Assembly (NCBI GenBank): GCA_902787365.1
Contig: CADAGC010000004.1
Location: 15,506-57,948 of the forward strand
Direction: 5' to 3'
DNA length: 42,443 nucleotides
Source of the DNA: an uncultured Ruminococcus sp.
Lineage (GTDB): Bacteria; Bacillota; Clostridia; Oscillospirales; Ruminococcaceae
The notes beneath the pieces were generated by a model. The model saw only the letters and a list, made by a program, of their open reading frames with translations, ran no database searches and was not told the origin of the DNA. Shown here piece after piece: positions 8,628 through 42,398 of this stretch. Position 1 is the stretch's first letter, and each line of letters begins with the position of its first letter. Both the position numbers and the translations under genes were made by a program.

Positions 8628-11585
8628 ATGTTTACACTTTTGCTGAGAAAAATGCGAAACACCAAATGGATGGTGTTCTGCCTGCTGATAGGCTGCGTTA
8701 TGGCCTGCGCCATGATGGCGACCATACCTATCTATATGAATGCATCGCTGCAGCGAATGCTCGTTAAGGACTTAGAGGTCTTTCAGCAGGATTACAATAT
8801 ATACCCGGGTATGTATAATACCAAATACGCCATGAACATGAGCCTTAATGCCGAAGGGCAGCGGCAGCTCATAGAAGCCACCGAAAAAGCGGTTGACGAG
8901 AGCTTTGAGCAGCTTGACGTCGAGGCGACGAACAAGCGCTTTGTGAGTGATGACTACCTGTATGCTGCAAACTTCTCGACAGAGGCGGGCGGCGATTCGG
9001 TAAAACTTCACCTGGGCGCTATGAGCGGCATAGCCGACAATGTCACGGTAACGCAGGGGCGTATGTTTGAGCCGGGCAAAAACGGAAACGGCGCCTTTGA
9101 GGTCATAACCACCGAGCGTGCCATGAAAGTTACGGGCATAGCGGTCGGGCAGACCTACGAGCTTGCAAACATCTTTGACCCGTCAAAGGGCAGCATAAGG
9201 GTCGAGGTCGTGGGCGTTTTTGAGCCTAAGGAGGGCTGCGAGGCCTACTGGGCAGAGGGGCTTGATGAATACCTAAGCTCGGTGCTTGCAGACTATGACA
9301 CCTACCTTGGCGAGATGCTCGACACAGGGACACTTCACACCTCGCAGTATGTCAACAACTACGCTATCGACTACAACAAGCTCGATATGACGAGGCTTGA
9401 CAGCTTTATAGAAAAGATAGACGAGCAGGCAGAAGCCTACAAGCAGGCAAAGGTGAGCTTCTCGATGCCTGCTAAGGAGATAATCGAAGACTATGCCGAG
9501 CGTGCTTCACAGCTTAGGCTGGTATTATGGCTTTTACAGATACCCATAATGCTGATGATTCTTTTCTACCTGTTTATGGTGGCACAGCTCAACGTCGAGC
9601 AGGAGAAAAACGAGATAGCCGTATTCAAATCCCGTGGCGCATCACGTGGGCAGGTCGTGCTGATGTATGCCCTTGAATCGGTAGTTATCGGCGTATGCTC
9701 GGCACTTTTGGCACCCTTTGCGGGGCTGCTGCTTTGCCGCATACTCGGCGCATCAAACGGCTTCCTTGAATTTGTAAACCGTTCATCTATCCCTGCAAGG
9801 CTGTCATTTGAGGCGTTCATCTACTCATTCATAGCAGCGGCGGTGTTCTTTGCGACGACTATGCTGCCTATCTTCCCTGCAACAAAGGAAACGATAGTCG
9901 GCCACAAGCAGTCAAAGGCCAAAAAGAGAAAGCTCTCGCTTTGGGAGAAAACGGGGCTTGACATAATACTTCTTGGCGGCTCGGTAGGCTGGCTCTACTA
10001 CTACAAAAAAGAGCAGGCGCAGCTTTTAAGCGAGGGCGTTACCGACATAACAGCCACAGTCAACCCGATGCTGTTTGTAGCTTCTACAGGCTTTATTCTC
10101 GGCTGCGGGCTGCTGATAATCAGACTCTACCCGCTGATGATAAGGCTTATAGCTTTTGCAGGCAGGCGCTTCTGGCCGCCGTCGATACACGTATCACTCA
10201 ACAACATCGGCCGCTCGTCCACGGGCAGGGAGAAGTTCCTTATCCTCTTCCTGGTGCTGACGGTATCGTTAGGCCTGTTCTTTGCAAACACCGCACGGGC
10301 GCTCAACCGCTCGGCCACCGACCAGATAAACTACGCAGTCGGCTGTGATGTAAGGCTCACCGAGACCTGGAAATCAAACAAGGTATCAAAGAGCAGTCAG
10401 GGGCAGTCGGCGGCTTCATTCGGCATGACGGGCAACACGGGCGACGAAGAGGAGGAAGAAGAAGTAGACGCTTCCACCTTAAGCTACGAAGAGCCCGACT
10501 TTACGAGATTTGAAAAGCTTGACGGCGTTGAGGCGGCGGCAAGGGTGTTTAGAAAAGACAGCGTGACCCTTTCTTCGAGCAAGATGAAGGTGCCCAAAAA
10601 GGCCACCTACAAAGACAAGAACGAGCGCAAGAAGGAAGACTTCATGAATATGGAGGACACAGGCTCGTCCAACTCGGCAAAGGACGTAACGCTTATGACC
10701 GTTGACCCGGGCGAGTTCTCAAAGGTGGTCTGGACGACCCCACGGCTTTTCCCGACACACATAAACAACTACTTAAACGCACTTGCCGACTACAATTCGG
10801 GCGTTATACTCTCGACATCGTTCCGTGACACCTACGGCTTAAAGCTTGGCGACACGGTATCGTGCAAGTGGGGCAGCAACTCTGAATTCACCGTGACGGT
10901 GCTGGCATTTGTTGACTGCTGGCCGTCTATTCAGCCCTATGCGAAGACCGAAACAGGCGAATACCGTGACTTTGCGATAATGAACTTTGACTATGTTCGG
11001 GTCGCAACGAACGTTGAGCCTTACGAGGTATGGCTAAAACTAAAAGACGGCACAAAGACTGAGGATTTCTACACAGCCCTTGAAGATGCAAAGATAAAGT
11101 GTGACACCTTAGAGGTCGCAAGCCAGCAGATAATACAGAAAAAGAACGACCCCATGCTGCAGGGCATGAACGGCGCTCTGACATTAGGCTTTATCATAAT
11201 AATGATAATGTGCATAATCGGCTTCCTTATCTACTGGATAATTTCCATTCGCTCACGCACGTTGCAATTTGGCATACTGCGTGCTATGGGCATGAAGTTC
11301 CGTGAGATAATCGCTATGCTCATAACCGAGCAGGTGCTTGTTTCAGGTGCGGCGATAGTGCTCTCATTCGTGGTAGGGTCTATCGCAAGCGAGCTGTTCG
11401 TGCCGCTGTTCCAGTCATTCATGCAGTCGGGCGCTTACCCCGAGTTCGCAGTTATCCCCGAGCGGGGCGACTACCTGAAGATATACGCCGCCCTCGGCGC
11501 TATGCTGCTGTTCTGCTTCGCAGTTCTCGGCAGGTTGATAAGGGGCATCAACATCAGCAAGGCGCTCAAACTGGGCGAAGATTAA
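8628..11585 (+). CDS. FtsX-type ABC exporter permease, duplicated architecture
   Basis: 985 residues. It begins with a transmembrane helix (about 15-37), then a large extracytoplasmic domain. A first FtsX core with several helices follows (about 295-430, including EKNEIAVFKSRGASRGQV). There are further helices near 445-560, a second extracytoplasmic domain containing a low-complexity acidic stretch, and a final FtsX core (about 840-985, including RTLQFGILRAMGMKFREI). The K/R-S-R-G-A-S and R-A-M-G-M motifs are the conserved coupling loops toward the ATPase. It has no nucleotide-binding domain and no ATPase gene next to it. The orphan ATPase at 29253 is one possible partner (inference). A terminator follows at 11599. 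Confidence 0.85.
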   Translation: MFTLLLRKMRNTKWMVFCLLIGCVMACAMMATIPIYMNASLQRMLVKDLEVFQQDYNIYPGMYNTKYAMNMSLNAEGQRQLIEATEKAVDESFEQLDVEATNKRFVSDDYLYAANFSTEAGGDSVKLHLGAMSGIADNVTVTQGRMFEPGKNGNGAFEVITTERAMKVTGIAVGQTYELANIFDPSKGSIRVEVVGVFEPKEGCEAYWAEGLDEYLSSVLADYDTYLGEMLDTGTLHTSQYVNNYAIDYNKLDMTRLDSFIEKIDEQAEAYKQAKVSFSMPAKEIIEDYAERASQLRLVLWLLQIPIMLMILFYLFMVAQLNVEQEKNEIAVFKSRGASRGQVVLMYALESVVIGVCSALLAPFAGLLLCRILGASNGFLEFVNRSSIPARLSFEAFIYSFIAAAVFFATTMLPIFPATKETIVGHKQSKAKKRKLSLWEKTGLDIILLGGSVGWLYYYKKEQAQLLSEGVTDITATVNPMLFVASTGFILGCGLLIIRLYPLMIRLIAFAGRRFWPPSIHVSLNNIGRSSTGREKFLILFLVLTVSLGLFFANTARALNRSATDQINYAVGCDVRLTETWKSNKVSKSSQGQSAASFGMTGNTGDEEEEEEVDASTLSYEEPDFTRFEKLDGVEAAARVFRKDSVTLSSSKMKVPKKATYKDKNERKKEDFMNMEDTGSSNSAKDVTLMTVDPGEFSKVVWTTPRLFPTHINNYLNALADYNSGVILSTSFRDTYGLKLGDTVSCKWGSNSEFTVTVLAFVDCWPSIQPYAKTETGEYRDFAIMNFDYVRVATNVEPYEVWLKLKDGTKTEDFYTALEDAKIKCDTLEVASQQIIQKKNDPMLQGMNGALTLGFIIIMIMCIIGFLIYWIISIRSRTLQFGILRAMGMKFREIIAMLITEQVLVSGAAIVLSFVVGSIASELFVPLFQSFMQSGAYPEFAVIPERGDYLKIYAALGAMLLFCFAVLGRLIRGINISKALKLGED

Positions 11586-11598
11586 ACCAAATAAAAGC

Positions 11599-11635
11599 AA
11601 AAGCAGGAGAGTTATCAGCTCTCCTGCTTTTCTTG
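11599..11635. terminator. bidirectional terminator between convergent operons
   Basis: A 12-bp perfect stem (AAAGCAGGAGAG at 11600-11611 with CTCTCCTGCTTT at 11619-11630), with T-rich flanks on both strands. It ends the permease operon and can also end the minus-strand sigma/anti-sigma operon. A second GC-rich hairpin (GCCGCCTT/AAGGCGGC, 11638-11666) stands beside it. Confidence 0.8.
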
Positions 11636-11701
11636 TTGCCGCCTTTTATTTTGGGGGGAAGGCGGCGGGTGGAAAGATCGTATATGGCTTCTTACTTATT
11701 C

Positions 11702-13477
11702 TTACTGGTGGAACTCAATCCTTTGCAGACTGCTCGGCGTGTGCAGAGTATAGTTATTGTCATACTCGCCGCTGCCGCCTATGAGCAGAGCGCTGCCGTT
11801 CTCTGCACTTACTACCTCGCCCACTATCTCGCAGTGGCTGCCGCCTTTCTTGACCAGCGTGCTGCTTATGGGGCTGCCGCTGCTGTCATAATCCACCCTG
11901 GCTTTCACGATTATATCCGACTCCATATATGACGGTTTTTTTGTCAGCTTTTTGTCCTCGAACCTTTCGGGGAAGTCATGCACCTCGTTTTCTGTATAGT
12001 AGCGTCCGTCCTCATCAACGTACAGCGTGATCTCATCATAATAGCATTTTTGCCTTGCGATAGAATACCTTGATGAAGAAATACCGCTGCCCGGAATGGG
12101 CACAAGACCTGTCTCGGTGCTAAGCTCAAAGTGCCTATTTTTGACGAAGGTTTCATAGTTCTCGCCTTCATATGTTCCGTGAATGAACTGCGCTGTCGTT
12201 ATCACGCCCGTGCTTTTGTTGAGCACGCACACATCTGTCTCGTATTCTGCGATAGCCGTGTATCTGTCCTCAAAGGTGCTGTCTGCAAACGGCGACTCGT
12301 CATCAAAGAGCTTTGCTGTCGCAGGCTCCTCTATGCCCAGCGTGTCAAGAGCCATTATGTGATACTCTACCTTGTAAAGCCCGCTGCTCTGCGGCTCTGA
12401 CGAGGTTTCGCTGTATATAATAAATATGTCGCTCATATTATCCTGATCTTCGGTCTTGCTCACGTTAAGCGTGCCTGAGGTGTATATGCCCTCGATGCGT
12501 GTCAGGGTCTTTGCACCATTTTTATCGGTGATGGTGTATAGCTTTTCGGGCTGCTTGCCAAAGCGCTGACGGTAGACCGTGTTTTCCGTGCTGCCGTCAT
12601 CCCTTTTTGCGATGGTGCTGTAAAATAGCGTTATGCAGCTGTCATCGCCCGTGCTGCCTGCTTCGGGTTCTTTTAATGTATAGTCCGAGTCGGCAAGGCA
12701 GTAAGCCGTCACATCAGCATCATCATACTGCACCCCAAAGCCCTTGCCCGTAGGCTCAAGAGTGCTTGCATCATAGCCAAACACCTCAAGCATTTGTTTT
12801 TTGCTATTATTTTCCGCATCATAGTCACAAGAGAGAAGTGCCACAAAAATATCACTGCCCGTGCAGGTGAGATAATCAAGCTTGCTGCATATATCCTTTG
12901 ATGTGGCGTAAATATTGCCGCTGCCGTCAACGACCGCCGAGCCGTCATTATTCATCAGCAGTATCCTGTCATAGCCTATCTGATAAGCCTGCCTTGCACC
13001 ATCGTCGGCATCATCTTCTTCTGCGCCCGTGACCTCGTTGGTGAGCAGGGTATACAGGCTCTTGCTCTTATCAAAAATATCCGTGCGCTTTGTGGCGCTG
13101 TTGTCGGAGGGCGTTCCCGTCGTCAGCCTGCCCTTATTGTAAAAGTTCACCGCAAACACGCCCAGCACTATCACCACTATGCAGGCAGCCGCCGCGCCCA
13201 GCCACATAAATAGCCTGGGCTGCCTTACCGCCGCCGCTGCGTGCTCCTCGCCCTCAGACGGAGTGGTGTCTGTTTCTGTGTACTCCGTCACGGGCGGGGT
13301 TATATCTAATCTTTTGTCCTCAATTATCGAAAACACCGAAGCTTCGTCGGCTATGTCGTTTACGGGCGTGTCTTTCTCTTTTAATATACGCTCGTTCAAT
13401 ATCCGTTCCCTGACGCCTGCAGGGGGGGCTATGCCGTCAAGCGACTTAAAAAGGTCAAACATCTCCTTATCCTGCAT
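11702..13477 (-). CDS. membrane-anchored anti-sigma-like protein with large extracytoplasmic domain
   Basis: 591 residues. A short cytoplasmic N-terminus (KEMFDLFKSLDGIAPPAGVRERIL) is of the kind that binds ECF sigma factors. A Pro/Thr/Glu-rich linker and a single transmembrane helix (about residues 89-110) follow. Then comes an extracytoplasmic part of about 470 residues that looks like repeated beta-strands, possibly a propeller, with no catalytic motif I recognise. The start at 13477 is preferred to 13486 because AAAGGAG lies 9 bp before it and directly abuts the earlier ATG. It overlaps the sigma gene by 11 bp, so the two are translationally coupled. Confidence 0.7.
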   Translation of the reverse strand: MQDKEMFDLFKSLDGIAPPAGVRERILNERILKEKDTPVNDIADEASVFSIIEDKRLDITPPVTEYTETDTTPSEGEEHAAAAVRQPRLFMWLGAAAACIVVIVLGVFAVNFYNKGRLTTGTPSDNSATKRTDIFDKSKSLYTLLTNEVTGAEEDDADDGARQAYQIGYDRILLMNNDGSAVVDGSGNIYATSKDICSKLDYLTCTGSDIFVALLSCDYDAENNSKKQMLEVFGYDASTLEPTGKGFGVQYDDADVTAYCLADSDYTLKEPEAGSTGDDSCITLFYSTIAKRDDGSTENTVYRQRFGKQPEKLYTITDKNGAKTLTRIEGIYTSGTLNVSKTEDQDNMSDIFIIYSETSSEPQSSGLYKVEYHIMALDTLGIEEPATAKLFDDESPFADSTFEDRYTAIAEYETDVCVLNKSTGVITTAQFIHGTYEGENYETFVKNRHFELSTETGLVPIPGSGISSSRYSIARQKCYYDEITLYVDEDGRYYTENEVHDFPERFEDKKLTKKPSYMESDIIVKARVDYDSSGSPISSTLVKKGGSHCEIVGEVVSAENGSALLIGGSGEYDNNYTLHTPSSLQRIEFHQ

Positions 13478-13961
13478 CGTCCTCATCTCCTTTCAGTAGT
13501 GCCGACAGCCGCTTTCTGCCTCGGCTGAGGGTAGAATACACCGTTCCCTCTTTCATATCAAGCATCTGTGATATCTCTGCTGCCGAATATCCGAAATAGT
13601 AGTAAAGCGTCATCACGCCCCGCTCATTATCCCCCATTTGTGATAGCGCCTGCGCAAGTTCGCTCGTCTGCTCCGGGGCTGTAAGCTCGCCTGCCTCGGC
13701 TATGTGCGCCTCCAAGCTTATCACCCGCCTGTATGCAAGCCTAAGCTGTGAGCGGCAGGTGTTCTGCGCCGTGACTATGAGCCAGGCTTTTATATGCTCG
13801 CTGTCTTCGGAGCTGACCGAGCAGCTTTTGTAAAGCTTTAAGAACGTGTCCGACACAGCGTCCTCCACGTCCTGCCGCCTGCCCGAAAGCTCGACAAAGC
13901 ATATGCGCCAAACCATATCAAAATATTCGTTATAGCAGGATATAAATTCTTTTTCCGTCAT
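13467..13961 (-). CDS. ECF-type RNA polymerase sigma factor
   Basis: 164 residues, standard ECF length. Region 2 is visible from YFDMVWRICFVELSGRRQDVEDAVSDTFLKLYK, and region 4 near the C-terminus as GYSAAEISQMLDMKEGTVYSTLSRGRKRL, a helix-turn-helix that reads the -35 box. The ribosome site GGAG lies 11 bp upstream of the start. It is the first gene of a two-gene unit with the membrane anti-sigma. Its leader carries the ATAAGTGAAAGGC box that also precedes the neighbouring sigma gene. Confidence 0.9.
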   Translation of the reverse strand: MTEKEFISCYNEYFDMVWRICFVELSGRRQDVEDAVSDTFLKLYKSCSVSSEDSEHIKAWLIVTAQNTCRSQLRLAYRRVISLEAHIAEAGELTAPEQTSELAQALSQMGDNERGVMTLYYYFGYSAAEISQMLDMKEGTVYSTLSRGRKRLSALLKGDEDDAG

Positions 13962-14127: not shown

Positions 14128-15099
14128 TTACTTGACCTCAAAGCGTGTACCGCCTATGGTTATTGCGCTTACATTGTCAATATCAACAAACTCCAAGAAC
14201 GATATGTGTATCTTGTCATAATGCCCGTCATCCCTCGATTCGGAAGAGCCGTATATCTCAATGCTCTTTGATGTGCCGTCCTTGTAGAATACTGTCACCT
14301 CTCTGAACGGCAGCGGGTCGGTCTTGACTGCGATCGTCACATCTCTGCCGCTTATGCTGTTTTCGCAAAGTGATATTTTTTCATTTTCCGCGTTTTCAAG
14401 AATTATTGTTCTTTCGTTCTTTTCAAAGGTCAGCTCAAACTCTGCAAAGGTTATATACTTTCCTCCCTCAATGCCAAAGGTTATAAGCGACATAGGCATA
14501 GTCACCTTGTCCTGCGGCTCGTCAAGAACATAAGACCAGCGCATTACCGCTCTGCCGTTTTCCACAAGAGTGTTTGTCTCCTCATCAAATTCCGTATCGC
14601 TTATCTCCGACTTGACCGAGTGCAGCCAGGGCTCCTCGCAGTTTTGAAGCATTTTTGCACCCCTTTCATCATTCGGCTCAGCATTTGCAACAACTGTAAT
14701 ATACTGCCCGTCCGAGAGTATCGTCTCTATGTTGATGTCAAAATGCTTGCCCTTGAAAGTCTGCTCGTATTTTGCGCCCATGCTTTCAAGCTTTTCGTCT
14801 GCGCCTGCGCCGAAGTATCTCTCGCTTGCGGAGTTTTTCTTATAAACATATGAAGCCCCCGCGCCCACTATGCCCGTGACCGCTATCGCCGCCGCTGCCA
14901 TAAAGCCTATAAAGCGTCTGCTGTATTTTTTGGTGTGACTAATTCTGTTCTCCATAGTTATCCCTGCCTTTCTCTCAGTCAGAGAAAGTATGCGTGCTGT
15001 TATGTCCTTGTCCCCGCGCTCTATGCGGCACTCATCGCCTGCAAGGGCAGCCTCCTCGGGGGTCAGGCTGTCAAAAAGCTCTGTTATCTTCTTTTCCAT
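14128..15099 (-). CDS. DUF4179-like membrane anti-sigma protein
   Basis: 323 residues: a cytoplasmic N-terminus (TELFDSLTPEEAALAGDE) of about 60 residues, one transmembrane helix (about 64-86), and a beta-rich extracytoplasmic domain ending in TIGGTRFEV. Layout and ending resemble the DUF4179-type partners of ECF sigma factors in Clostridia. The protein encoded at 39586 has the same plan and ends in YVKFNGKRY. Its start overlaps the sigma stop codon by one base (TAATG), so the two are coupled. The signal sensed is unknown. Confidence 0.72.
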   Translation of the reverse strand: MEKKITELFDSLTPEEAALAGDECRIERGDKDITARILSLTERKAGITMENRISHTKKYSRRFIGFMAAAAIAVTGIVGAGASYVYKKNSASERYFGAGADEKLESMGAKYEQTFKGKHFDINIETILSDGQYITVVANAEPNDERGAKMLQNCEEPWLHSVKSEISDTEFDEETNTLVENGRAVMRWSYVLDEPQDKVTMPMSLITFGIEGGKYITFAEFELTFEKNERTIILENAENEKISLCENSISGRDVTIAVKTDPLPFREVTVFYKDGTSKSIEIYGSSESRDDGHYDKIHISFLEFVDIDNVSAITIGGTRFEVK

Positions 15100-15629
15100 T
15101 ACATATCCTCCTCCAACTGCTGTCTGAGTTTTGATAAGGCACGCTGTATGCGCTTGTCAACCGTGTTCGGGCGCAGGCCTGTCTGCTTTCCTATTTCCTT
15201 TGAGCTTAGCCCGTAGAAATAGCGCAGCCATATAAGCCGTGAATCAGGCTCGCCGAGGGCTTTTATAAGCTCGATCAGCTCGGCACGCTCGGTGTCTGTG
15301 CTGCCGTCTGTTAAGTATGACAGGTCGTCTATGTCGATAACTTCGGGATCACCGCTTTTTGCACGAAACACATCGGCGCAGCGCCGCCTTGCTATCACCA
15401 GTATCACAGGGCGCACGGCTGTTAGAGTATCAAAGCCCCTTTTAAGCCCGAAGCGGTAGAAGCGCACGAAGATATCGCTCGCAGTCTCCTCCATATCACG
15501 CTCATCGCACACCGCAGACAGCCTGCCCTTGCAGACTGCATACACATATGCGCTATAGCTTTCCACTACCTGTTCAAGCCCCTTCTCGGGGTCGCTTTGC
15601 AGCAGCGAAAGCAGTTCCTTATCGTTCAT
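15099..15629 (-). CDS. ECF-type RNA polymerase sigma factor
   Basis: 176 residues. Region 2 covers YSAYVYAVCKGRLSAVCDERDMEETASDIFVRFYR. Region 4 covers LIWLRYFYGLSSKEIGKQTGLRPNTVDKRIQRALSKLRQ. The ATG at 15629 was chosen over a TTG at 15650 because GTGAGGA lies about 8 bp before it. It is co-directional with the first ECF pair but separated from it by a terminator, so the two pairs are separate operons. Confidence 0.9.
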   Translation of the reverse strand: MNDKELLSLLQSDPEKGLEQVVESYSAYVYAVCKGRLSAVCDERDMEETASDIFVRFYRFGLKRGFDTLTAVRPVILVIARRRCADVFRAKSGDPEVIDIDDLSYLTDGSTDTERAELIELIKALGEPDSRLIWLRYFYGLSSKEIGKQTGLRPNTVDKRIQRALSKLRQQLEEDM

Positions 15630-15666
15630 TTGGTTTTCCTCACCTTGCAAGATGTCTGAGATTTTT

Positions 15667-32760: not shown

Positions 32761-33798
32761 TTATATTTTTTTACTCCAAGCCATTGAAACTGCTAATGAT
32801 AATAAGATGCTTTTTATAAATATTATTCCTACAAGTAACCACAGGCTTACAGATGCCGAATACATCTTTCCAAGCTGCATTCCGCTTATATAATAAACAG
32901 CTCTCTCACTTTCAACTCCTGTCGAAATGATCTGAGGCGTTATCCCGATAATAAACCCCGTAATGATTGCAAAGGTGATATTTTTAAAAAGCACTGCGAT
33001 AAGGCAGAAAAGGCAGGAATACATTGCCCATATCAGAGCTTTTAACAGAGTATATTTAAGATAATATACTATCAGAGAAGTATCCCCGAAACCGTCAGTC
33101 AGCAGGATATTCCCGACAGGCATATCGCTGTATTCAAGTCCATTCCGGTATACAAACACACCGAGCATGACCGCACTCATCAGACAGGACAACACAAATA
33201 TCGCAGCCCAAACCGCCGCAAGCTTTGATAGCGCAAGCTGAGTTTTTCCTCGCTTTGATGTGATTATCTGTTTAAAGCTCCCCGACGAATACTCGGCATC
33301 AAAAGCAGGAACAGCAATACACAAAAGCGCTATCAGCATCACATAGTCAAAGCCGTTATCCTCGAAAAAGTCATTCCAGGCGGTATCACAAAAGATCTGC
33401 TTATCAAAATCAGTACAGCCGTCAAGTGCTTCGCATTTGCTGCAAAGATAACGCACCGTGCTTTCCTCTGCCTTTGCTTTGCCATGCTGCTCGGTGTAGG
33501 CTGAATATTCATCAAGGGTGATCTCTCCTGCCGTGTACCTTTGCTGCATTTCATCATAGGCACCTATTAGCTCGTCTATTTCGGCAAGGCGGCTGTTAAG
33601 ATACTCTGCCTTTTCAGCTGTCAGCTCACCTTCAAGCTGCGCGGTGTAGCTTTTATAGACTTCATCAGAATAGGGGTGCTCATGCACCGACGGCAGAATA
33701 CACAGCACCGCCCTTACAGCGACCGCAAGCAGAATGACAAGCGGCAGGCGGTTTATTTTTACAAGCTTTTTAAACTCCGTGAAAAATATCCTAAGCAT
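32761..33798 (-). CDS. ABC-2-type transporter permease, subunit 2
   Basis: 345 residues. An N-terminal helix (about 18-36) is followed by an extracytoplasmic loop of about 110 residues with a helical, charged segment, then about five further helices (from residue 150). It has the sequence EYSSGSFKQIITSKRGKTQLALSKL, the cytoplasmic motif common to lantibiotic/bacitracin-type ABC-2 permeases. It overlaps the ATPase gene by 8 bp. With the permease at 34660 and the ATPase it forms a heteromeric exporter. Confidence 0.8.
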   Translation of the reverse strand: MLRIFFTEFKKLVKINRLPLVILLAVAVRAVLCILPSVHEHPYSDEVYKSYTAQLEGELTAEKAEYLNSRLAEIDELIGAYDEMQQRYTAGEITLDEYSAYTEQHGKAKAEESTVRYLCSKCEALDGCTDFDKQIFCDTAWNDFFEDNGFDYVMLIALLCIAVPAFDAEYSSGSFKQIITSKRGKTQLALSKLAAVWAAIFVLSCLMSAVMLGVFVYRNGLEYSDMPVGNILLTDGFGDTSLIVYYLKYTLLKALIWAMYSCLFCLIAVLFKNITFAIITGFIIGITPQIISTGVESERAVYYISGMQLGKMYSASVSLWLLVGIIFIKSILLSLAVSMAWSKKI

Positions 33799-34660
33799 TT
33801 TCCGTCACTTCACCAAAATAGTTCATGTAAACATCTTCAAGCCCGGCCTTTGCAGGGCTTGCGTTTTTGTCGGGCATTTCGTCCGACACCGTATGCACAA
33901 AAACACCGCCCTCACGCTTTATGATATTGGCGCAGCTATGTGTCAGCAGATAGCTTTCCGCCTGCTTCTCGGTCATTGGGATATCCCATACCTTGCCCTC
34001 TATTTTCGCGCACAGCTCGTCTGGGCTGCCCTTGTCTATCAGTCGCCCGTTCTTTAGCAGCAAACAGTCATCGCTGATGCTCTCGACATCTGAAACGATA
34101 TGAGTTGCAAGAATGACTATCTTGCCAAAACCCACCTGCGAGATAACATTGCGAAAGCGCATTCTCTCCTTTGGGTCAAGACCTGCCGTGGGCTCGTCAA
34201 GGATAAGTATTTTCGGGTCATTCAGTAGTGCAAGCGCAATACCGAGCCGCCTTTTCATTCCTCCGCTGTAACCGCCGACCTTGCGCTTTTTATCCTCCTG
34301 CAAATTCACAAGTGTCAGCAGCTCGTCTATGCGCTTTTTGCTGTCTTTCACATCACGCAAAGCAGCATAGTATTCAAGCGTTTCGACTGCCGAAAAGCTC
34401 TTGTAAAAGCCAAGATCCTGCGGCATAAAGCCAAGTATCTCCCTAAAATCAGCACCCATTTTGTCGGTGTCAGTTCCATCTATCATCACGCTGCCCGAGG
34501 TCTGTTTGAGCAGACCTGCAAGTATATTCATAAGCGTCGATTTGCCTGCACCGTTAGGACCGAGCAGAGCATGAACGCCTTCGTTCAGCGTCACCGAAAA
34601 ATCTGTAAGCGCCTGCTTTGACTTATAGCTTTTGCACACGTTTTTGAATTCAAGCTCCAT
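33791..34660 (-). CDS. ABC transporter ATPase (BcrA/LanF-like)
   Basis: 289 residues. Walker A is GPNGAGKST (34-42), the Q-loop FMPQDLGFY, the signature YSGGMKRR (131-138) and Walker B/D-loop ILILDEPTAGLD (151-162). A C-terminal extension of about 80 residues is normal for drug- and bacteriocin-type ABC-2 ATPases. The start at 34660 has AAGGAGG 10 bp upstream and overlaps the permease stop by one base (TAATG). It belongs to the accessory cassette. Confidence 0.92.
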   Translation of the reverse strand: MELEFKNVCKSYKSKQALTDFSVTLNEGVHALLGPNGAGKSTLMNILAGLLKQTSGSVMIDGTDTDKMGADFREILGFMPQDLGFYKSFSAVETLEYYAALRDVKDSKKRIDELLTLVNLQEDKKRKVGGYSGGMKRRLGIALALLNDPKILILDEPTAGLDPKERMRFRNVISQVGFGKIVILATHIVSDVESISDDCLLLKNGRLIDKGSPDELCAKIEGKVWDIPMTEKQAESYLLTHSCANIIKREGGVFVHTVSDEMPDKNASPAKAGLEDVYMNYFGEVTENA

Positions 34661-35859
34661 TATGACGCCCTCCTTATTCTTCCGCTTTGGATATAGCCAA
34701 TTACTGCGCAGGCTGCCGATATGATGACCGCCAAAGCAATACAGAACACTATCCTGCTGCAAGGAAAACCGAACAGCGAAAAGCAGTCAAAACCTTTGAG
34801 GTATTCTCTTATGTTGAGCAAACTCTGCGGCAGGATAATACGCAGCTTATCATAAATGGGGATAAGTGCTGATTTGCTCTTTTCGCTTTTGTCAATAGCA
34901 ACATAAAGTGCCATATTTGCCGCAAGACCGCTTGCCGAAATGATGATAGATATGATGTTCACGATAAGCGGACGCTTAATAAAGACGGCGATTAACGCTG
35001 TTGCAGAGATAACAGCCGTATAGCAGATAAGCCTTACAAAATACTTTATCACATAAAACTCCGCTATGCTGAGAATGTAGGGGCAGTATTCAAACTCGGC
35101 TATCTGCTGCAAGGGCAGGCTGAAATTCTTTGCCCCGTAAGCATACATTCCAAAGCCTATCTCAAACACCGCCTGAACAAGCAGAACAACTGCCGCAATG
35201 CTGATGATTGCAAGATACTTTTTTAAAAATAAATCCTGCACCGTGCGTTTGCTTGTGTTTACAAGACAGTATGCGGAGGTGGTGTATTCAAGTGTGAAAA
35301 GCCGCACTGTCATCATAACGCAGAAAGCAATCATTACATACTCCCACATTGAATAATTGAAAGACGAATAATAGCCTGAGCTGTTCATTCCGGTGTTCTC
35401 AAATTCAAGCTCAATCCTGCGGTTATACTGCGATATTGCTTTCTTGTTCGCTCTGATAAGATATTTGTCGGGGCTTTCCTTTTGCTGCTCGGTAACGTTC
35501 TGATAGATCATTCCCTTTACAAGCTCTTTTCTGTCACTCTCAAAGCCTGTGGTCACATATTGCAGCTTGTCGGCTGCAAACATTATACCGCCGACATCGT
35601 TTATAGCGTTGTCGCTGTATATAGGTTTAGCCTCACCGTTTGCGAAGATATTGTTTATCTCCTCATAAAGCTCGCCGTAGGTCTTGTTATCTGCCTGCGC
35701 TTTTGCTATAATGTTTTCATAAGATTGAAAAGTTTTGCGGTTTTCCTCTATTCCGCCCCAGACTTCACGCACGGGAAGATATATCATATATGCAAGCGTC
35801 AGCGCAAGCATAATAAGCAACAGCTTTGAGGAGAAAAGCTTTTTGTATTCGTATTTCAC
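34660..35859 (-). CDS. ABC-2-type transporter permease, subunit 1
   Basis: 399 residues, GTG start with GAGGTGA 8 bp upstream. An N-terminal helix (about 11-28) is followed by an extracytoplasmic region of about 140 residues and about five further helices (from about residue 168). The cytoplasmic motif TLEYTTSAYCLVNTSKRTVQDLFLKKYLA follows the first core helix, as in the sister permease. The two permeases are dissimilar in sequence but have the same plan. It lies 13 bp after the lipoprotein gene. Confidence 0.8.
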   Translation of the reverse strand: MKYEYKKLFSSKLLLIMLALTLAYMIYLPVREVWGGIEENRKTFQSYENIIAKAQADNKTYGELYEEINNIFANGEAKPIYSDNAINDVGGIMFAADKLQYVTTGFESDRKELVKGMIYQNVTEQQKESPDKYLIRANKKAISQYNRRIELEFENTGMNSSGYYSSFNYSMWEYVMIAFCVMMTVRLFTLEYTTSAYCLVNTSKRTVQDLFLKKYLAIISIAAVVLLVQAVFEIGFGMYAYGAKNFSLPLQQIAEFEYCPYILSIAEFYVIKYFVRLICYTAVISATALIAVFIKRPLIVNIISIIISASGLAANMALYVAIDKSEKSKSALIPIYDKLRIILPQSLLNIREYLKGFDCFSLFGFPCSRIVFCIALAVIISAACAVIGYIQSGRIRRAS

Positions 35860-35872
35860 TTAATGGCTCACC

Positions 35873-36934
35873 TCATTCTTTAGCAACTCTGGTTTTGTTA
35901 GTGCTTGAACCATTATAGCCATATGATGTGTTGTTTTTTATATTATCTAAAGCATTCGGAATATAATAAGGTACGGCAACAGCTTGTAATATGTGCAATC
36001 CTTTTGATTTTAGAAAAGTTGAAGGGATAGCATATTCAAATGTCTTATCACAGGCTTTTAATTCACTTGTAAAAGGGGTGTGGACTATAATTGTTTTGTT
36101 ACCTTTAAAGACAGGTATTATTTCTCCGTCGATAATGATAAATAAGCTATAATATATTCCCAATGGTTCTTGCTCATCATTGACCTGATCGCAGTTGAAT
36201 TTAATGTACATATTATCATTTTCTTTTAGGATAAAGTCCTCATAAAACTGAAAATGAGTGTCTTTATCGTTTTCAAATGACGATTTATCAAAATCAAAAC
36301 AGCCTTTGCTTACAGCCGACGGTGTCACAAGATAATTATTCTCATCAACAGCGTCAGGAATAATGTCAAGTGAATTTGAGCTTGTGTTGACAAACGTATA
36401 TGTACAGATTCCGGTATATAAGCCGAGTTTAAGTTCCGGGACATGATCGGGCAAGGCAGAAATTACTACTGTTACAAATCTCATATCCTTTTTTCCGTTA
36501 AAGCTGATTATATGAGAATATCCCTCACTTTCATCATATTCATTAGTTTCTTTGAATTCACCCCCGTCGAGTGAAAACGGCAATAATTCATTATCGCATA
36601 TAAGCCAAACCCTTACTGGCAGCTTATCTGATTGTATACTGCTGTCCGGTGACACTGTAGTCTCAAGTACAATACTGACTAACTCGTCACCTATTTCATA
36701 TTTGAATCCCAATGGTTCTCCCGTACTGTTATCATCATTTAATTTACATAAATTCATAGCAGCAAAAAAGTCAAATGATTCATTATCAGATTCATTATTA
36801 TCAGAAGCTGATGTCAATATTTCCGACTCTTTGCTCTCTGAACTATTATCCGATGTGGCATTATTTGTACATCCACATAGTATTACACTTATTATCAGAA
36901 ACAGATGTATCAGCATTATTCTTTTATTCATCAT
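35873..36934 (-). CDS. lipoprotein of unknown function in the cassette
   Basis: 353 residues. The signal ends in lipobox ILCGC, followed by a Ser/Asn/Glu linker and a beta-rich body in two halves, each opening with an E-P-L-G-(F/I)-(K/Y)-Y motif. The repeat suggests two copies of one domain. The ATG at 36934 was chosen because GAGG lies 8 bp upstream. The base composition is clearly more AT-rich than the genes left of 31 kb. No family recognised. It starts 8 bp after the propeller-like lipoprotein gene. Confidence 0.65.
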   Translation of the reverse strand: MMNKRIMLIHLFLIISVILCGCTNNATSDNSSESKESEILTSASDNNESDNESFDFFAAMNLCKLNDDNSTGEPLGFKYEIGDELVSIVLETTVSPDSSIQSDKLPVRVWLICDNELLPFSLDGGEFKETNEYDESEGYSHIISFNGKKDMRFVTVVISALPDHVPELKLGLYTGICTYTFVNTSSNSLDIIPDAVDENNYLVTPSAVSKGCFDFDKSSFENDKDTHFQFYEDFILKENDNMYIKFNCDQVNDEQEPLGIYYSLFIIIDGEIIPVFKGNKTIIVHTPFTSELKACDKTFEYAIPSTFLKSKGLHILQAVAVPYYIPNALDNIKNNTSYGYNGSSTNKTRVAKE

Positions 36935-36942
36935 TCTAATCC

Positions 36943-38112
36943 TCAATATGATAGTATTTCTTCCCTGCCGTTTTCGGGCTGATACCAGATACCAAGACTT
37001 GTTGCTCTGACCTCGTTCGTTTCCTTATCTATCCTGAAAAGTGCATTGTAGCATTTATCGCCCGTGCTTTTGGTGTAGTCAAGCAGGTATATAAACCTTG
37101 ATGACGGGCAGGAGATAAGCTGCACTGTGCCGAAGTCACTTGTGACATATTGCTCGTTATTTTCGTAGGTAAGCTCAAGGCTTATCTTCTCCGCATTTTC
37201 GCCTGATAAGTCACAGCTATACAGCCCGTCAGTCGTCAGATAGTAAATACGTTTATCGGTCACATACATAGAAAGCTCGGTATCTGTGACCAACTTTTTC
37301 TCATTGCTCCCATCGGGATCACTTTTAAAAACAGAGTTCTTGCCCTCGTCGGTTTTTATGTAGTAAAGGCTATCATTACAAGCCTGAATGCGCCATACCT
37401 TGTCGGCAAGCTTTTTAAGCTCACCGCTTTTCATATCATAGCTGATAAGTTCTAAATTCTCGTTTGTTATATAGAACATATCATCGCTTACATCGGCGTT
37501 CCATATAGGGCTTTCGGATATAACTACGGGCTCACAGGTCTGCTTCATTGTGGAGATATCGACGGTGTAGAAATATGTCATTCCCGTAACATATAATGTT
37601 TCCCCATGGATGAAAAAACCGCAGCCTGTTTTAGCGTCGGGCTCAAATTCGGCCTCCTTGTCGGTGTAAAATGTGTTTTCAAAGACTGTTTTTTCCTCTC
37701 CTGCCGTCTTGAAAAACAGCTTTCCGGGAGAAAAATAATTTGTGTAATACATTCCGTCCTTTGTAAAAATAGGGTTGTTTATCGGCATATATTCCTTGCA
37801 GGTGTCAATTGCCGTGTCATCGTGAGGACACCCGGGTATATCGCAGAATGAACTTATTATGCCAGTGTTAAGGTCAATAAGCTTTTTTCTGTCCTGCTCA
37901 AAAACGGCAAACTGATTTGATGAAACAGAATATCCCGAGTGCAGAAAGACCTTCGCTTTATCATCAATTTCAATTGTGTCAGCATTCTCCGAGGTAATTG
38001 CTGTTTGATATTCCTCTTCAACATCTTTATAATCGATGTACTGTTCTGTGTTTTTAGATGAGCACGAACTTAAAAATATGGTTGTTATGATTACTATTGC
38101 TATTTTTTTCAT
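36943..38112 (-). CDS. beta-propeller-like lipoprotein
   Basis: 389 residues with lipobox LSSC. The body has repeated strand patterns (YYTNYF, LYVTGMTYFYTVDISTMKQ, MFYITNENLELISYDMKSGELKKL, DSLYYIKTD, RIYYLTTDGLYSCDLSGENAEKI), like the DUF5050-type propellers. Near residue 90 it has CDIPGCPHD...C, a Cys-rich signature that occurs in clostridial extracellular lipoproteins of this kind. A ligand or partner binding role at the cell surface is likely. Ribosome site GGGGATATCAA precedes the ATG. Confidence 0.7.
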   Translation of the reverse strand: MKKIAIVIITTIFLSSCSSKNTEQYIDYKDVEEEYQTAITSENADTIEIDDKAKVFLHSGYSVSSNQFAVFEQDRKKLIDLNTGIISSFCDIPGCPHDDTAIDTCKEYMPINNPIFTKDGMYYTNYFSPGKLFFKTAGEEKTVFENTFYTDKEAEFEPDAKTGCGFFIHGETLYVTGMTYFYTVDISTMKQTCEPVVISESPIWNADVSDDMFYITNENLELISYDMKSGELKKLADKVWRIQACNDSLYYIKTDEGKNSVFKSDPDGSNEKKLVTDTELSMYVTDKRIYYLTTDGLYSCDLSGENAEKISLELTYENNEQYVTSDFGTVQLISCPSSRFIYLLDYTKSTGDKCYNALFRIDKETNEVRATSLGIWYQPENGREEILSY

Positions 38113-38290
38113 TTGATATCCCCTTTAGTACAAATATAAATGATTTTGAATCTCCCATTCGAAACGCTTTTTTAATCACCTTATACTTCAAAAGCACTTG
38201 ATAATTGGTCACAATATCAAAATGATTCAATTACCCAACTAATCCGCGGTAGATTAGAGAGGCTGCCATATCAATAACTTATAAAAGATT

Positions 38291-38343
38291 GCCACACAGT
38301 ACAATTGCAATGGAATTCATTTTAGCAAATTATACTATGTGGC
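38291..38343. repeat. 53-bp imperfect palindrome between lipoprotein and secreted-protein genes
   Basis: GCCACACAGTA (38291-38301) pairs with TACTATGTGGC (38333-38343) with one mismatch. Inside, AATGGAATTCATT is a further palindrome. Read on the minus strand it includes TAGTATAAT. It could terminate the secreted-protein transcript, act as an operator, or carry a promoter for the lipoprotein-ABC genes. The rest of the 38113-38383 gap shows no gene. Confidence 0.5.
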
Positions 38344-38383
38344 ATCTATCATTGCATCAATAAATTGACATAATTAATAAAGA

Positions 38384-38827
38384 TTAGCAATTGTAATTGC
38401 AACTCTGTGATGAAGTGCCATATACAGAGGATGATGTCTTAACAGTTGATGTTACATAATTATATTTTGTTGAATTGGTTGAAGAAATGTCCTTGTCATA
38501 GTGTTCACCGCTATTGGATCCACTAAAATAATCAGAAGTTGACGAATTGTGTGCATAGCCTGTAATCGTAAATTTAGTGGTAATAGTGTTGGAATTGTTA
38601 TATCCGGGTGTATATGCTCTTACTCCCCAATAATAAACATGAACACCACCGGATGGCTCATAAACATCTGTATAACCTCGAGCGGTTATTTTTATGCTCT
38701 GTGAACCATTTGTATATGCATAAGTGGGTGAGCCTTTATAAGTAAATGCACTCGCATTTATGCATAGAAAACTAGCTGCTGTCAGTAAAGACAATCCCAT
38801 TGAAATTATTCTCTTACTCTTTTTCAT
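38384..38827 (-). CDS. small secreted beta-rich protein, possible bacteriocin-like effector
   Basis: 147 residues. A Sec signal peptide (MKKSKR, hydrophobic core, ASA before FTYKG) would leave about 119 residues. The mature part is rich in Ser, Thr, Tyr, Asn and Gly with alternating strands, and ends in SQSCNYNC; the two C-terminal Cys are its only ones. AAGGAGGTC provides an excellent ribosome site. It does not match a bacteriocin family I know; lactococcin 972-type precursors share only the layout of secreted beta protein plus ABC transporter. Its promoter matches that of the divergent ECF sigma gene. Confidence 0.65.
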   Translation of the reverse strand: MKKSKRIISMGLSLLTAASFLCINASAFTYKGSPTYAYTNGSQSIKITARGYTDVYEPSGGVHVYYWGVRAYTPGYNNSNTITTKFTITGYAHNSSTSDYFSGSNSGEHYDKDISSTNSTKYNYVTSTVKTSSSVYGTSSQSCNYNC

Positions 38828-38912
38828 CAGTAAGACCTCCTTGAAAAATTTTATATTTTATGTGTTTGCAAAAGCAAAACACAATAATCAACCGATTAAT
38901 TGCTTTCATAAT

Positions 38913-38943
38913 TATTGACGTATCATATTTGAATAGTACTACA
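38913..38943 (-). promoter_or_regulatory. ECF-type promoter of the secreted-protein gene
   Basis: On the minus strand TGTAGTA (38937-38943), 15 bp, ACGTCAATA (38913-38921). Both boxes and the spacing are identical to those before the ECF sigma gene. The -10 part contains CGTC, a typical ECF -10 core. The leader would be about 80 nt. Confidence 0.7.
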
Positions 38944-38983
38944 TATTTCTTGATAATTTTATAAAAATAATTTATAATAAAAG

Positions 38984-39014
38984 TGTAGTAAAACTATATT
39001 ATTTTACGTCAATA
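38984..39014 (+). promoter_or_regulatory. ECF-type promoter of the sigma gene (autoregulation)
   Basis: TGTAGTA (38984-38990), 15 bp, ACGTCAATA (39006-39014), 18 bp before the GTG start. The exact copy in divergent orientation at 38913-38943 makes chance unlikely. Confidence 0.7.
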
Positions 39015-39031
39015 TAATAGGTGGTGATTCT

Positions 39032-39589
39032 GTGGATGATAATCAGATTATAGAATTATTCTTTCGTCGTGATGAACAAGCAATTTATGAAACTGAACGA
39101 AAATATATGGAAATGTGTTGTAAAATTGCTTTTAATATACTTAATAACAATGAAGACTGTAATGAAGCACTCAATGATACATGGTTGAAAGTCTGGAACA
39201 GCATTCCTCCTGAAAAGCCTAAAAATCTACCTGCATATCTTACTGTAATTGTTAGAAATGCATCGATAGATAAATATAGAAAAAATATGTCTATTAAGCA
39301 GTTGGATAATGATATGAAAGCAACAATCGAAGAAATATCAGACATTATTCCTGACACATTAAGCGTAGAAAAGCAATTAGAAAATAAAGAACTGATCAAT
39401 TGCATCAACGATTTCATTGAAACTCTATCCAAAAAACAGCGCATTATTTTTATAAGACGATACTATTATTTTTATAGTATACGGGATATTGCTGAGGAGT
39501 ATGGATGGTCGGTCAGTTACATAACAGTGAATCTTACACGTATTAAACGCAGATTAAAGAAACATATTGAAAAGGAGAATCTGATATGA
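39032..39589 (+). CDS. ECF-type RNA polymerase sigma factor of the accessory cassette
   Basis: 185 residues, GTG start with AGGTGGTG 5 bp upstream. Region 2 spans YMEMCCKIAFNILNNNEDCNEALNDTWLKVWNSIP. Region 4 spans IIFIRRYYYFYSIRDIAEEYGWSVSYITVNLTRIKRRLKKHI. It is more AT-rich than the ECF genes at 13.9 and 15.6 kb. The stop overlaps the next start (ATGA). Its own gene and the divergent secreted-protein gene carry the same promoter, so it probably drives both. Confidence 0.9.
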   Translation: MDDNQIIELFFRRDEQAIYETERKYMEMCCKIAFNILNNNEDCNEALNDTWLKVWNSIPPEKPKNLPAYLTVIVRNASIDKYRKNMSIKQLDNDMKATIEEISDIIPDTLSVEKQLENKELINCINDFIETLSKKQRIIFIRRYYYFYSIRDIAEEYGWSVSYITVNLTRIKRRLKKHIEKENLI

Positions 39590-41297: not shown

Positions 41298-42398
41298 ATG
41301 GCCGGAAACTTTGACGGTATCAAGACAAGGCGGTTCGGAGTCGAGATCGAAATGACGGGCATCACCCGATGTTCGGCGGCAAAGGCTATCCAAAAGGTGC
41401 TGGGCGGTTCTATCAATCATGAGGGTGGGACTTATGATAAATACACTGTCGGTGATGAGAAAGGCAGAAGGTGGCAGATCGTATATGACAGCAGTATCTA
41501 TGCCCGAAAGAAAAACGGAGATTCTGCCTCAGACTATTATAAGGTTGAGATGAACTCCCCTATTCTTGAATTTGATGACCTTGACCTGCTGCAGGAGGTC
41601 ATACGAGCTTTGCGTAAGGAAGGAGCAATTACCGGTCCGCAATATGACTGCGGTACTCACATTCACATTGACGCTGCCGACTACACCCCACAGCAGATAC
41701 GGAACCTTGTTAATCTGTGGTCGAGCAAAGAAGATTATCTTTGGGATGCTCTTCAGGTATCCTCTGCACGGTCATATTACTGCAAGAAGATAAATCGTAC
41801 TTTTGTAGAACAGCTTAACCGCCGAAAACCAAAAACAATGAACGAGATCAAGAAGCTGTGGTATGCAGAAACAACAGACAGTCCTGAACGGCACTATAAC
41901 TCTACCCGTTATCATGGTTTGAATCTGCACAGCTTTTTTCAGCATGGTCACTATGAGATAAGAGCCTGCAATGCTTCGCTCCACGCTGGCGAGGTCAAGG
42001 CACAGATACTTCTTGCACTTGCTATCAGCAACGCCGCAGTTACAAGAACAAAATGCTCTCCGGCTGTATCGCATTCAGATAATATGCGGTACAGCTTTCG
42101 TGTTTTTCTGCTGAATTTGGGTTTTATCGGTGATGAGTACAAGAACTACCGTTCTCACCTGCTCAAGCATCTTTCGGGCAATATCGCATGGCGACACCCC
42201 GAAGATGCCATAGCCCAGCGAGAAAGGATCAAGGCCGAGCGTGAAGCCGCCCGTAACGAGCGTGTGCGAGTCGTGTCGCAAAATGAGAGCGAGGTCGGGG
42301 AAACACCCGGTGAGGAACAGAACGGCGCTGTGGGCGATTTGTCGAGCAGTTCCGAGGAAGAGACAGCCGAGGAAACTGCGGTCACAATGAATATGTAA
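41298..42398 (+). CDS. amidoligase-family protein
   Basis: 366 residues. GVEIEMTG near the N-terminus, YDCGTHIHID in the middle (metal-binding His) and HYEIRACNASLHAGEVKAQILLALAIS (E-I/F-R motif) are the signature elements of the amidoligase group related to glutamine synthetase and gamma-glutamylcysteine ligase. The C-terminal 70 residues are an acidic, Ser/Glu-rich tail. These genes are frequent in conjugative and integrative elements of Clostridia, often beside an AIG2-like cyclotransferase. Ribosome site GGAGGTGA lies 7 bp upstream. The target protein or amine is unknown. Confidence 0.85.
   Translation: MAGNFDGIKTRRFGVEIEMTGITRCSAAKAIQKVLGGSINHEGGTYDKYTVGDEKGRRWQIVYDSSIYARKKNGDSASDYYKVEMNSPILEFDDLDLLQEVIRALRKEGAITGPQYDCGTHIHIDAADYTPQQIRNLVNLWSSKEDYLWDALQVSSARSYYCKKINRTFVEQLNRRKPKTMNEIKKLWYAETTDSPERHYNSTRYHGLNLHSFFQHGHYEIRACNASLHAGEVKAQILLALAISNAAVTRTKCSPAVSHSDNMRYSFRVFLLNLGFIGDEYKNYRSHLLKHLSGNIAWRHPEDAIAQRERIKAEREAARNERVRVVSQNESEVGETPGEEQNGAVGDLSSSSEEETAEETAVTMNM

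Follow-up and report, generated by a model that had tools for sequence, protein, structure and literature searches.

A probable autoregulated ECF sigma switch with a two-way promoter beside a lipoprotein-ABC transporter operon in an uncultured Ruminococcus

The stretch of DNA analyzed here (the window, 42,443 nucleotides from an uncultured Ruminococcus sp.) carries an ECF sigma factor gene and a putative anti-sigma factor gene on its plus strand and, diverging from them, a gene for a small secreted protein followed by a lipoprotein-ABC transporter operon. The features of the locus are:

32761-33798, minus strand: ABC-2-like permease (ABC2_membrane_4, 23.5 bits, below the cut-off of 27)
33791-34762, minus strand: ABC transporter ATPase (ABC_tran, 112.6 bits)
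34660-35859, minus strand: permease-like protein without a Pfam family
35873-36946, minus strand: second lipoprotein (open reading frame)
36943-38112, minus strand: DUF5050 lipoprotein (DUF5050, 34.9 bits, cut-off 27)
38290-38344, minus strand: predicted hairpin between the secreted-protein gene and the lipoprotein genes (from the fold of 38250-38400)
38384-38827, minus strand: secreted protein of 147 aa (open reading frame; Sec-type signal sequence by eye)
38904-38943, minus strand: candidate ECF-type promoter of the secreted-protein gene
38950-38978, plus strand: sigma-A-like promoter TTGATA-17-TATAAT (11 of 12 consensus bases; consensus scan only)
38984-39014, plus strand: candidate ECF-type promoter of the sigma gene
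39032-39589, plus strand: ECF sigma factor of 185 aa
39586-40569, plus strand: putative membrane anti-sigma factor, DUF4179-like, 327 aa (4-base overlap with the sigma gene)

The 39032 product scores above the cut-offs of Sigma70_r2 (42.6 bits), Sigma70_r4_2 (35.1 bits) and TIGR02937 (sigma70-ECF; 84.8 bits, cut-off 42.9), and has regions 2 and 4 only, with a short linker, as defines the ECF (group IV) sigma factors. A PDB sequence search with this protein matched SigW. The protein encoded by the overlapping gene at 39586 has a single hydrophobic segment, and its residues 34-120 match DUF4179 with 23 bits, below the gathering score of 30.1; among 24 anti-sigma factors (set A1), 4 match this family at an E value of 0.01 or better. 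The PDB sequence search with the anti-sigma factor gave nothing at E 1. The best structural match of its predicted ectodomain model is 3FBQ, with 11% identity over 193 aligned residues, and the modeled fold is of the DUF4179 anti-sigma (RsiV/BAS1627) type. According to a passage of PMC6066255, 3FBQ is the part of an ECF anti-sigma factor with DUF4179 that lies outside the cell.

On the minus strand, an alternative ATG at 34660 would fit the ATPase gene to the stop of its neighbor. The ATPase falls below the cut-off of every NCBIfam model among the matches listed, including TIGR03740 for lantibiotic protection ATPases (E 2.2e-53, 181.3 bits, cut-off 309.75). PADLOC matches were limited to the ATPase and generic, and no relatives of the permeases were found in viral contigs or plasmids. 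The operon may function in peptide export or immunity, exporting or resisting an envelope-active peptide. The secreted protein had no match in phages, plasmids, PDB, Pfam, NCBIfam or PADLOC, and the single-sequence AF2 model (mean pLDDT 33.9) was unusable. Among 149 relatives, the protein was found in its own only, and 3 of 396 family genomes carry it: its own, G292 (39% identity over the full length) and G156 (residues 2-48 only). A match to residues 1-36 of a 737-aa protein (L057) was discarded as signal sequence only.

The two candidate ECF promoters share the motif TGTAGTA-N15-ACGTCAATA with 0 mismatches, at 38984-39014 (+) and 38913-38943 (-). An earlier note on this DNA had described an identical bipartite element facing both ways at exactly these positions, and this description was borne out to the base. 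When up to 3 mismatches were allowed, a scan of the 42-kb window returned only that pair, while shuffles of the whole window gave a mean of 0.33 matches, with at least two matches in 3 of 100. The earlier note had also named many unrelated genomic copies as a result that would speak against it; these did not turn up in its own genome (G000; 2,915,761 bases in 137 contigs, 93.75% complete), where the only two exact copies are those in the window. At up to 3 mismatches the genome holds 14 places, namely the window pair and 12 places at 3 mismatches, with none at 1-2 mismatches, as compared with 81 places for a backward control pattern. All 12 overlap a mechanically called open reading frame of at least 80 aa, and the window pair overlaps none. 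The looser pattern TGTAGTA-N14-17-CGTC at 0 mismatches occurs at 10 places (control, 17), and the 8 besides the window pair all lie inside such reading frames.

The 204-base intergenic region has a GC content of 22.5%, and a chance match arising from AT-rich DNA was considered. The inverted two-block match with equal gap comprises 17 bases here, and dinucleotide shuffling of the region gave a match of at least 16 bases 8 times in 3000 (~0.3%), so that base composition alone is an unlikely, though not absurd, source of the pair. Since the likeness of the two spacers is limited to AT-richness (by eye), the pair is not a fresh inverted duplication either. Comparison with other genomes leaves chance hardly credible: the pair recurs at two loci of another genus, with no other copy at 0 mismatches in either genome.

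These loci emerged from a search with the first permease, which turned up similar operons in 20 of the 396 family genomes, the window's genome being one of the 20. The stretches examined were 11 from 9 genomes besides the G292 stretch, giving 12 outside the window. G384, which belongs to another genus, has two loci (L236 and L237) where a lipoprotein-permease-ATPase-permease operon diverges from a sigma/anti-sigma pair. Gene by gene, the operons show 45-74% identity to the window, with 45% for the DUF5050 lipoprotein in both loci, 52-53% for the permease-like protein and 51% for the ABC-2-like permease in both; the sigma factors are 49% (L236) and 46% (L237) identical to that of the window, and the anti-sigma factors 39% and 40%. 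Both intergenic regions carry TGTAGTG-N16-CGTCARTATAA in both directions. An alignment of the six sites from the three loci needs no gaps, and TGTAGT and CGTCA.TA are invariant in it. At 0 mismatches, TGTAGTR-N16-CGTCARTA has four copies in G384 and two in G000, every one of them in these pairs. Relaxing this motif to 1-2 mismatches added 22 scattered matches in the two genomes, with no genome-wide excess over controls (12 vs 67 in G000, 16 vs 60 in G384).

Neither the secreted-protein gene nor the second lipoprotein was found at the G384 loci. Conversely, the G292 operon includes the secreted protein and both lipoproteins (the second at 30% identity), and no close sigma was found in that genome (best E 3e-4). 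Of the 12 stretches outside the window, two have a divergent sigma pair, one (L241) has a sigma gene on the same strand, six have no sigma pair in the DNA examined, and three lie near contig ends or are partial copies. The sigma factor of L241 (G006; 10288-11703, minus strand) is an ECF protein of 471 aa that carries a long C-terminal extension and is encoded upstream of the operon; this is a putative second way to link a lipoprotein-ABC operon to an ECF sigma. The same genome has another operon copy (L242) near a contig end, in which the lipoprotein frame is in two pieces and the permeases and ATPase are identical to those of L241 by hit statistics. Small proteins with a signal-like start are encoded beside the like operons of L243 (3089-3466, plus strand; G199) and L244 (11284-11691, minus strand; G016); these align at only 31% and 25%, too diverged for kinship to be called, and are not claimed as relatives of the secreted protein.

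For a broader view of the promoters, the upstream DNA of 92 sigma-gene relatives within the order was used; the 60 fetched regions were hand-picked, not random, from among the matches listed. From 95 upstream regions, those of the window, L049 and L050 were kept out of training, and removal of 11 near-duplicates from the other 92 left 81 regions for a two-block model. The resulting family promoter, with the window and G384 excluded, is TGTAACc-N13/14-ccGTcTATATaaGTGAAA. Under this model, the secreted-gene site (-35 TGTAGTA at 38937-38943, -10 ACGTCAATA at 38913-38921, followed by TTATGAAA) comes first, with 17.0 bits, among the 84,820 window positions scored. Downstream of it lies a TGAAA where the family has one, a feature that the earlier note had not used. 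The sigma-gene site (-35 TGTAGTA at 38984-38990, -10 ACGTCAATA at 39006-39014) reaches only 5.9 bits and rank 129 under the full model, for lack of a TGAAAG stretch behind its -10. Of the two, the divergent promoter thus fits the family better, and the call of the sigma-gene promoter draws on the exact repeat and on conservation in G384, where each locus has its counterpart of both window promoters. In L236, one unrelated place (16.7) scores between the two promoters of that locus. On the strand opposite the sigma gene, the window has the best score (16.9) of 33 loci (L016-L048), followed by L026 (15.4, far upstream at -277), L045 (11.6) and L030 (10.6), with the others at or below 9.2; L020 and L021, close sigma relatives, face a different gene. 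These scores indicate that the two-way design is not family-wide and is tied to the lineage of the window and G384.

The same sites might instead form an operator, with a dimeric regulator bound to the inverted pair and sigma-A promoters doing the transcribing. The pair is indeed inverted, ~40 bases apart in AT-rich DNA, and has the sigma-A-like site at 38950-38978 between its halves. However, each site is directional and bipartite with ECF spacing, and each matches the motif found upstream of many sigma genes that lack a second copy. The distance between the sites, moreover, varies from 40 bases in the window to about 44 in L236 and about 250 in L237, and the consensus scan of 37900-39013 showed no minus-strand sigma-A-like site from which the secreted-protein and operon genes could be read. 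We regard an operator as very improbable. In the preferred reading, in which the pair consists of two ECF promoters, the sigma-A-like site could possibly be a basal promoter for the sigma gene; the consensus scan that found it returned 26 sites in the scanned region, as compared with 14.5 in shuffles.

How far transcription from the divergent promoter reaches is a separate question. The secreted-protein gene is separated from the lipoprotein gene by a 271-base gap, and the fold of 38250-38400 on the minus strand (-41.5 kcal/mol, z -4.8) was equaled by none of 200 shuffles. Should the hairpin at 38290-38344 end the transcript, only the sigma and secreted-protein genes would be regulated, and the lipoprotein-ABC genes would be controlled separately, in keeping with the like operons in L210, L239, L240, L243, L244 and L245, which have no adjoining sigma pair in the DNA examined. 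Yet both G384 loci place the promoter directly before the lipoprotein gene, with no secreted-protein gene in between, and the gap in the window has neither an ECF-like site above 5.2 bits nor a minus-strand sigma-A-like site. The consensus scan found no terminator-like site at the hairpin, and no Rfam family reached its gathering score within 37900-39100. Termination at the hairpin is a reading that we consider unlikely, while giving it some weight. The hairpin could possibly be an attenuator or mRNA stabilizer, and it may split expression between the secreted-protein gene and the pump. The predicted conserved target is the DUF5050 lipoprotein-permease-ATPase-permease operon, which here lies behind the secreted-protein gene.

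The sigma factor itself offers a further line of evidence. Its specificity residues are D80, T165, V166 and T169, shared with both G384 sigma factors, and these were compared with promoter letters in the 74 of 92 relatives that have a called site (the 18 without a site of at least 15 bits were excluded). In region 2, the identity of residue 80 tracks the opening base of the -10 core, which is C in 27 of 27 cases with D, T in 18 of 24 with N and G in 18 of 18 with K. For bases 3 and 4 of the -35, V166 is accompanied by T (28/29) and A (25/29), serine at this position by C (15/18) and methionine by T and G (15/15). Bases 5-6 are AC in 43 of the called relatives and GT in 8. K165 goes with AC in 42 of 43 cases and T169 with GT in 7 of 7; T165 alone is found with AT (3) or AC (1), never GT, so the GT call depends on T169. 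By this residue-base code, the contact residues of the 39032 sigma fit TGTAGT/CGTC. That ECF sigma factors follow such a code is already known in general terms from Todor 2020, according to a passage of PMC8103513. After correction for kinship, sign tests on supported branches gave median p values of 0.06 to 0.13 (D80, 0.0625; V166, 0.070), and T169-GT had too few independent pairs for such a test. The links thus run in the right direction and are each individually marginal, with few independent changes.

The -35 box lacks AAC in both window sites and in all four G384 sites, which have TGTAGT. Passages of PMC8103513 and PMC8791391 name AAC in the -35 as an ECF hallmark; later definitions do not require it. 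The window sigma, those of L236 and L237, and L020 and L021 form a clade with support of 100/99. Within it, the nearest relatives L020 and L021 combine K165 and M169 with TGTAAC, which indicates that the -35 changed along with the recognition helix. TGTAGT also occurs in a second, distant clade, where 7 of 8 called members have T169.

If the sites are real ECF promoters, they might still be read mainly by another ECF sigma, such as the paralogue on contig 84 (L048), which has D80 and V166 and a close upstream site, TGTAATA-ACGTCTATATAAGTGAAAG. The L048 -35 differs at base 5, however, and this sigma has N165 and H169; in addition, the promoter pair travels with the 39032 sigma lineage into another genus. 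We hold a different reader to be highly improbable.

The shared promoters, the conserved arrangement and the fit of the contact residues together support, by sequence comparison, an autoregulated ECF switch, in which the 39032 sigma very probably reads both promoters and has this operon pair as a local regulon. At rest, the membrane anti-sigma factor (39586) would hold the sigma factor off, with a low supply of sigma from the 38950-38978 promoter. An envelope signal would remove the anti-sigma, and the sigma factor would fire both promoters, region 4 reading TGTAGT (V166, T169) and region 2 reading CGTC (D80). The sigma-gene promoter would provide feedback on sigma and anti-sigma, while the divergent promoter would drive the secreted protein, the two lipoproteins and the two-permease ABC transporter. 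In this scheme we infer the anti-sigma action, the signal and the read-through past the hairpin at 38290-38344.

Several proposals of the earlier note can be judged against this model. Its identification of the sites as promoters with an ECF-type -10 box gains backing from the family model, the G384 promoter pairs and the sigma contact residues, and the same three lines, conservation in G384 among them, argue for autoregulation and control of the divergent gene. Its ECF reading holds for the CGTC -10 and needs correcting at the -35, where TGTAGT is not the usual AAC box. The proposed link of the sigma factor to the secreted protein stands as divergent control, but the secreted protein, absent from G384, is not the conserved partner. 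The motif does appear to predict the regulon, as was claimed, but a local one of two promoters in its own genome and four in G384.

An autoregulated ECF sigma with an anti-sigma and a neighboring target is a known kind of system. The autoregulated ECF sigma of the B. subtilis sigma-Y operon is also linked to ABC transporter genes, which lie within that operon, whereas in the window they are on the strand opposite the sigma gene. LanI-LanFEG lantibiotic immunity comprises a lipoprotein, an ATPase and two permeases; the window set is alike in layout only, its permeases and lipoproteins matching no such family, and no lantibiotic gene was seen. In sigma-V/RsiV of Bacillus subtilis (ECF30), the ECF sigma gene is likewise followed by one for a single-pass anti-sigma that contains a DUF4179-like stretch. 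According to passages of PMC6066255 and PMC8844934, RsiV-type anti-sigma factors are cut by signal peptidase after the hydrophobic segment, and the window protein likewise has an A-S-A tripeptide (residues 56-58, by eye) directly after its membrane segment, a position as expected if signal peptidase releases it in an RsiV-like way. In contrast to RsiV, the window protein has an unlike ectodomain and a DUF4179 match below the cut-off, and the predicted target is a divergent ABC operon; from the BAS1627-type DUF4179 anti-sigma (3FBQ), which its ectodomain model resembles, it differs in sequence, at the 11% identity given above. Sigma-P/RsiP of Bacillus thuringiensis (ECF30, now ECF265c2) likewise pairs an ECF sigma with an anti-sigma, and the sigma controls few genes, its own among them (passage of PMC8791391), but the sigma-P -35 has AAC(A) and RsiP is described in a passage of PMC8844934 as lacking DUF4179. 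The window system is set apart by its AAC-less -35, by the pairing of this operon with a conserved two-way promoter, and by a secreted protein as the first gene. No published account of this arrangement was found among the open-licence papers listed.

The system is a sharp and cheap test case for reading a regulon from sequence: its six sites are spread over three loci and two genera, no other exact copies occur, and a small set of contact residues fits the promoter letters. The ECF residue-base code would come to include a -35 lacking AAC, a state that seems to have arisen twice in the sigma family. In addition, a probable control system is given to an operon type about which little has been described, with a small secreted protein, DUF5050 lipoproteins and an ABC pump; its hosts we infer to be Oscillospiraceae-like gut or rumen bacteria, and it may serve in antimicrobial action or immunity. 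A more speculative and rather doubtful extension is a portable sensing unit, with the sigma/anti-sigma pair back to back with the lipoprotein-ABC operon via the two-way TGTAGT promoter and insulated from other ECF sigma factors by the T165/T169 helix. The secreted protein would have been inserted as the first gene and be the payload. This protein, or a relative of it made by a competitor, would be sensed and exported by way of the anti-sigma, the lipoproteins and the pump, making the whole an ECF-controlled secreted-protein/immunity module.

Some further observations concern the surroundings. An Amidoligase_2 gene (41298-42398, plus strand) lies near the window operon and, by eye, an amidoligase-like gene (L213, 1840-2865, plus strand) near the G292 operon, where a site-specific recombinase (L210, 67-1701) is encoded as well; the lipoprotein-ABC operon may ride on a mobile element. 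Of the 92 sigma upstream regions, 16 have a dyad, TGAARG-N2-CYTT, directly after the -10 where the start is expected, as compared with 0.065 in mononucleotide shuffles; L106 entered this count in the wrong orientation. Examples are L048, L115, L101 and L116, and six carry TGAAAGCGCTTT, which resembles a catabolite-control site. The window has two more ECF sigma genes on the minus strand (13467-13961 and 15099-15650), each followed by a gene for an anti-sigma-like membrane protein (by eye, one a weak match), the two pairs spanning 11702-13961 and 14128-15650 and making three sigma/membrane-protein pairs in 42 kb with the 39032 pair included.
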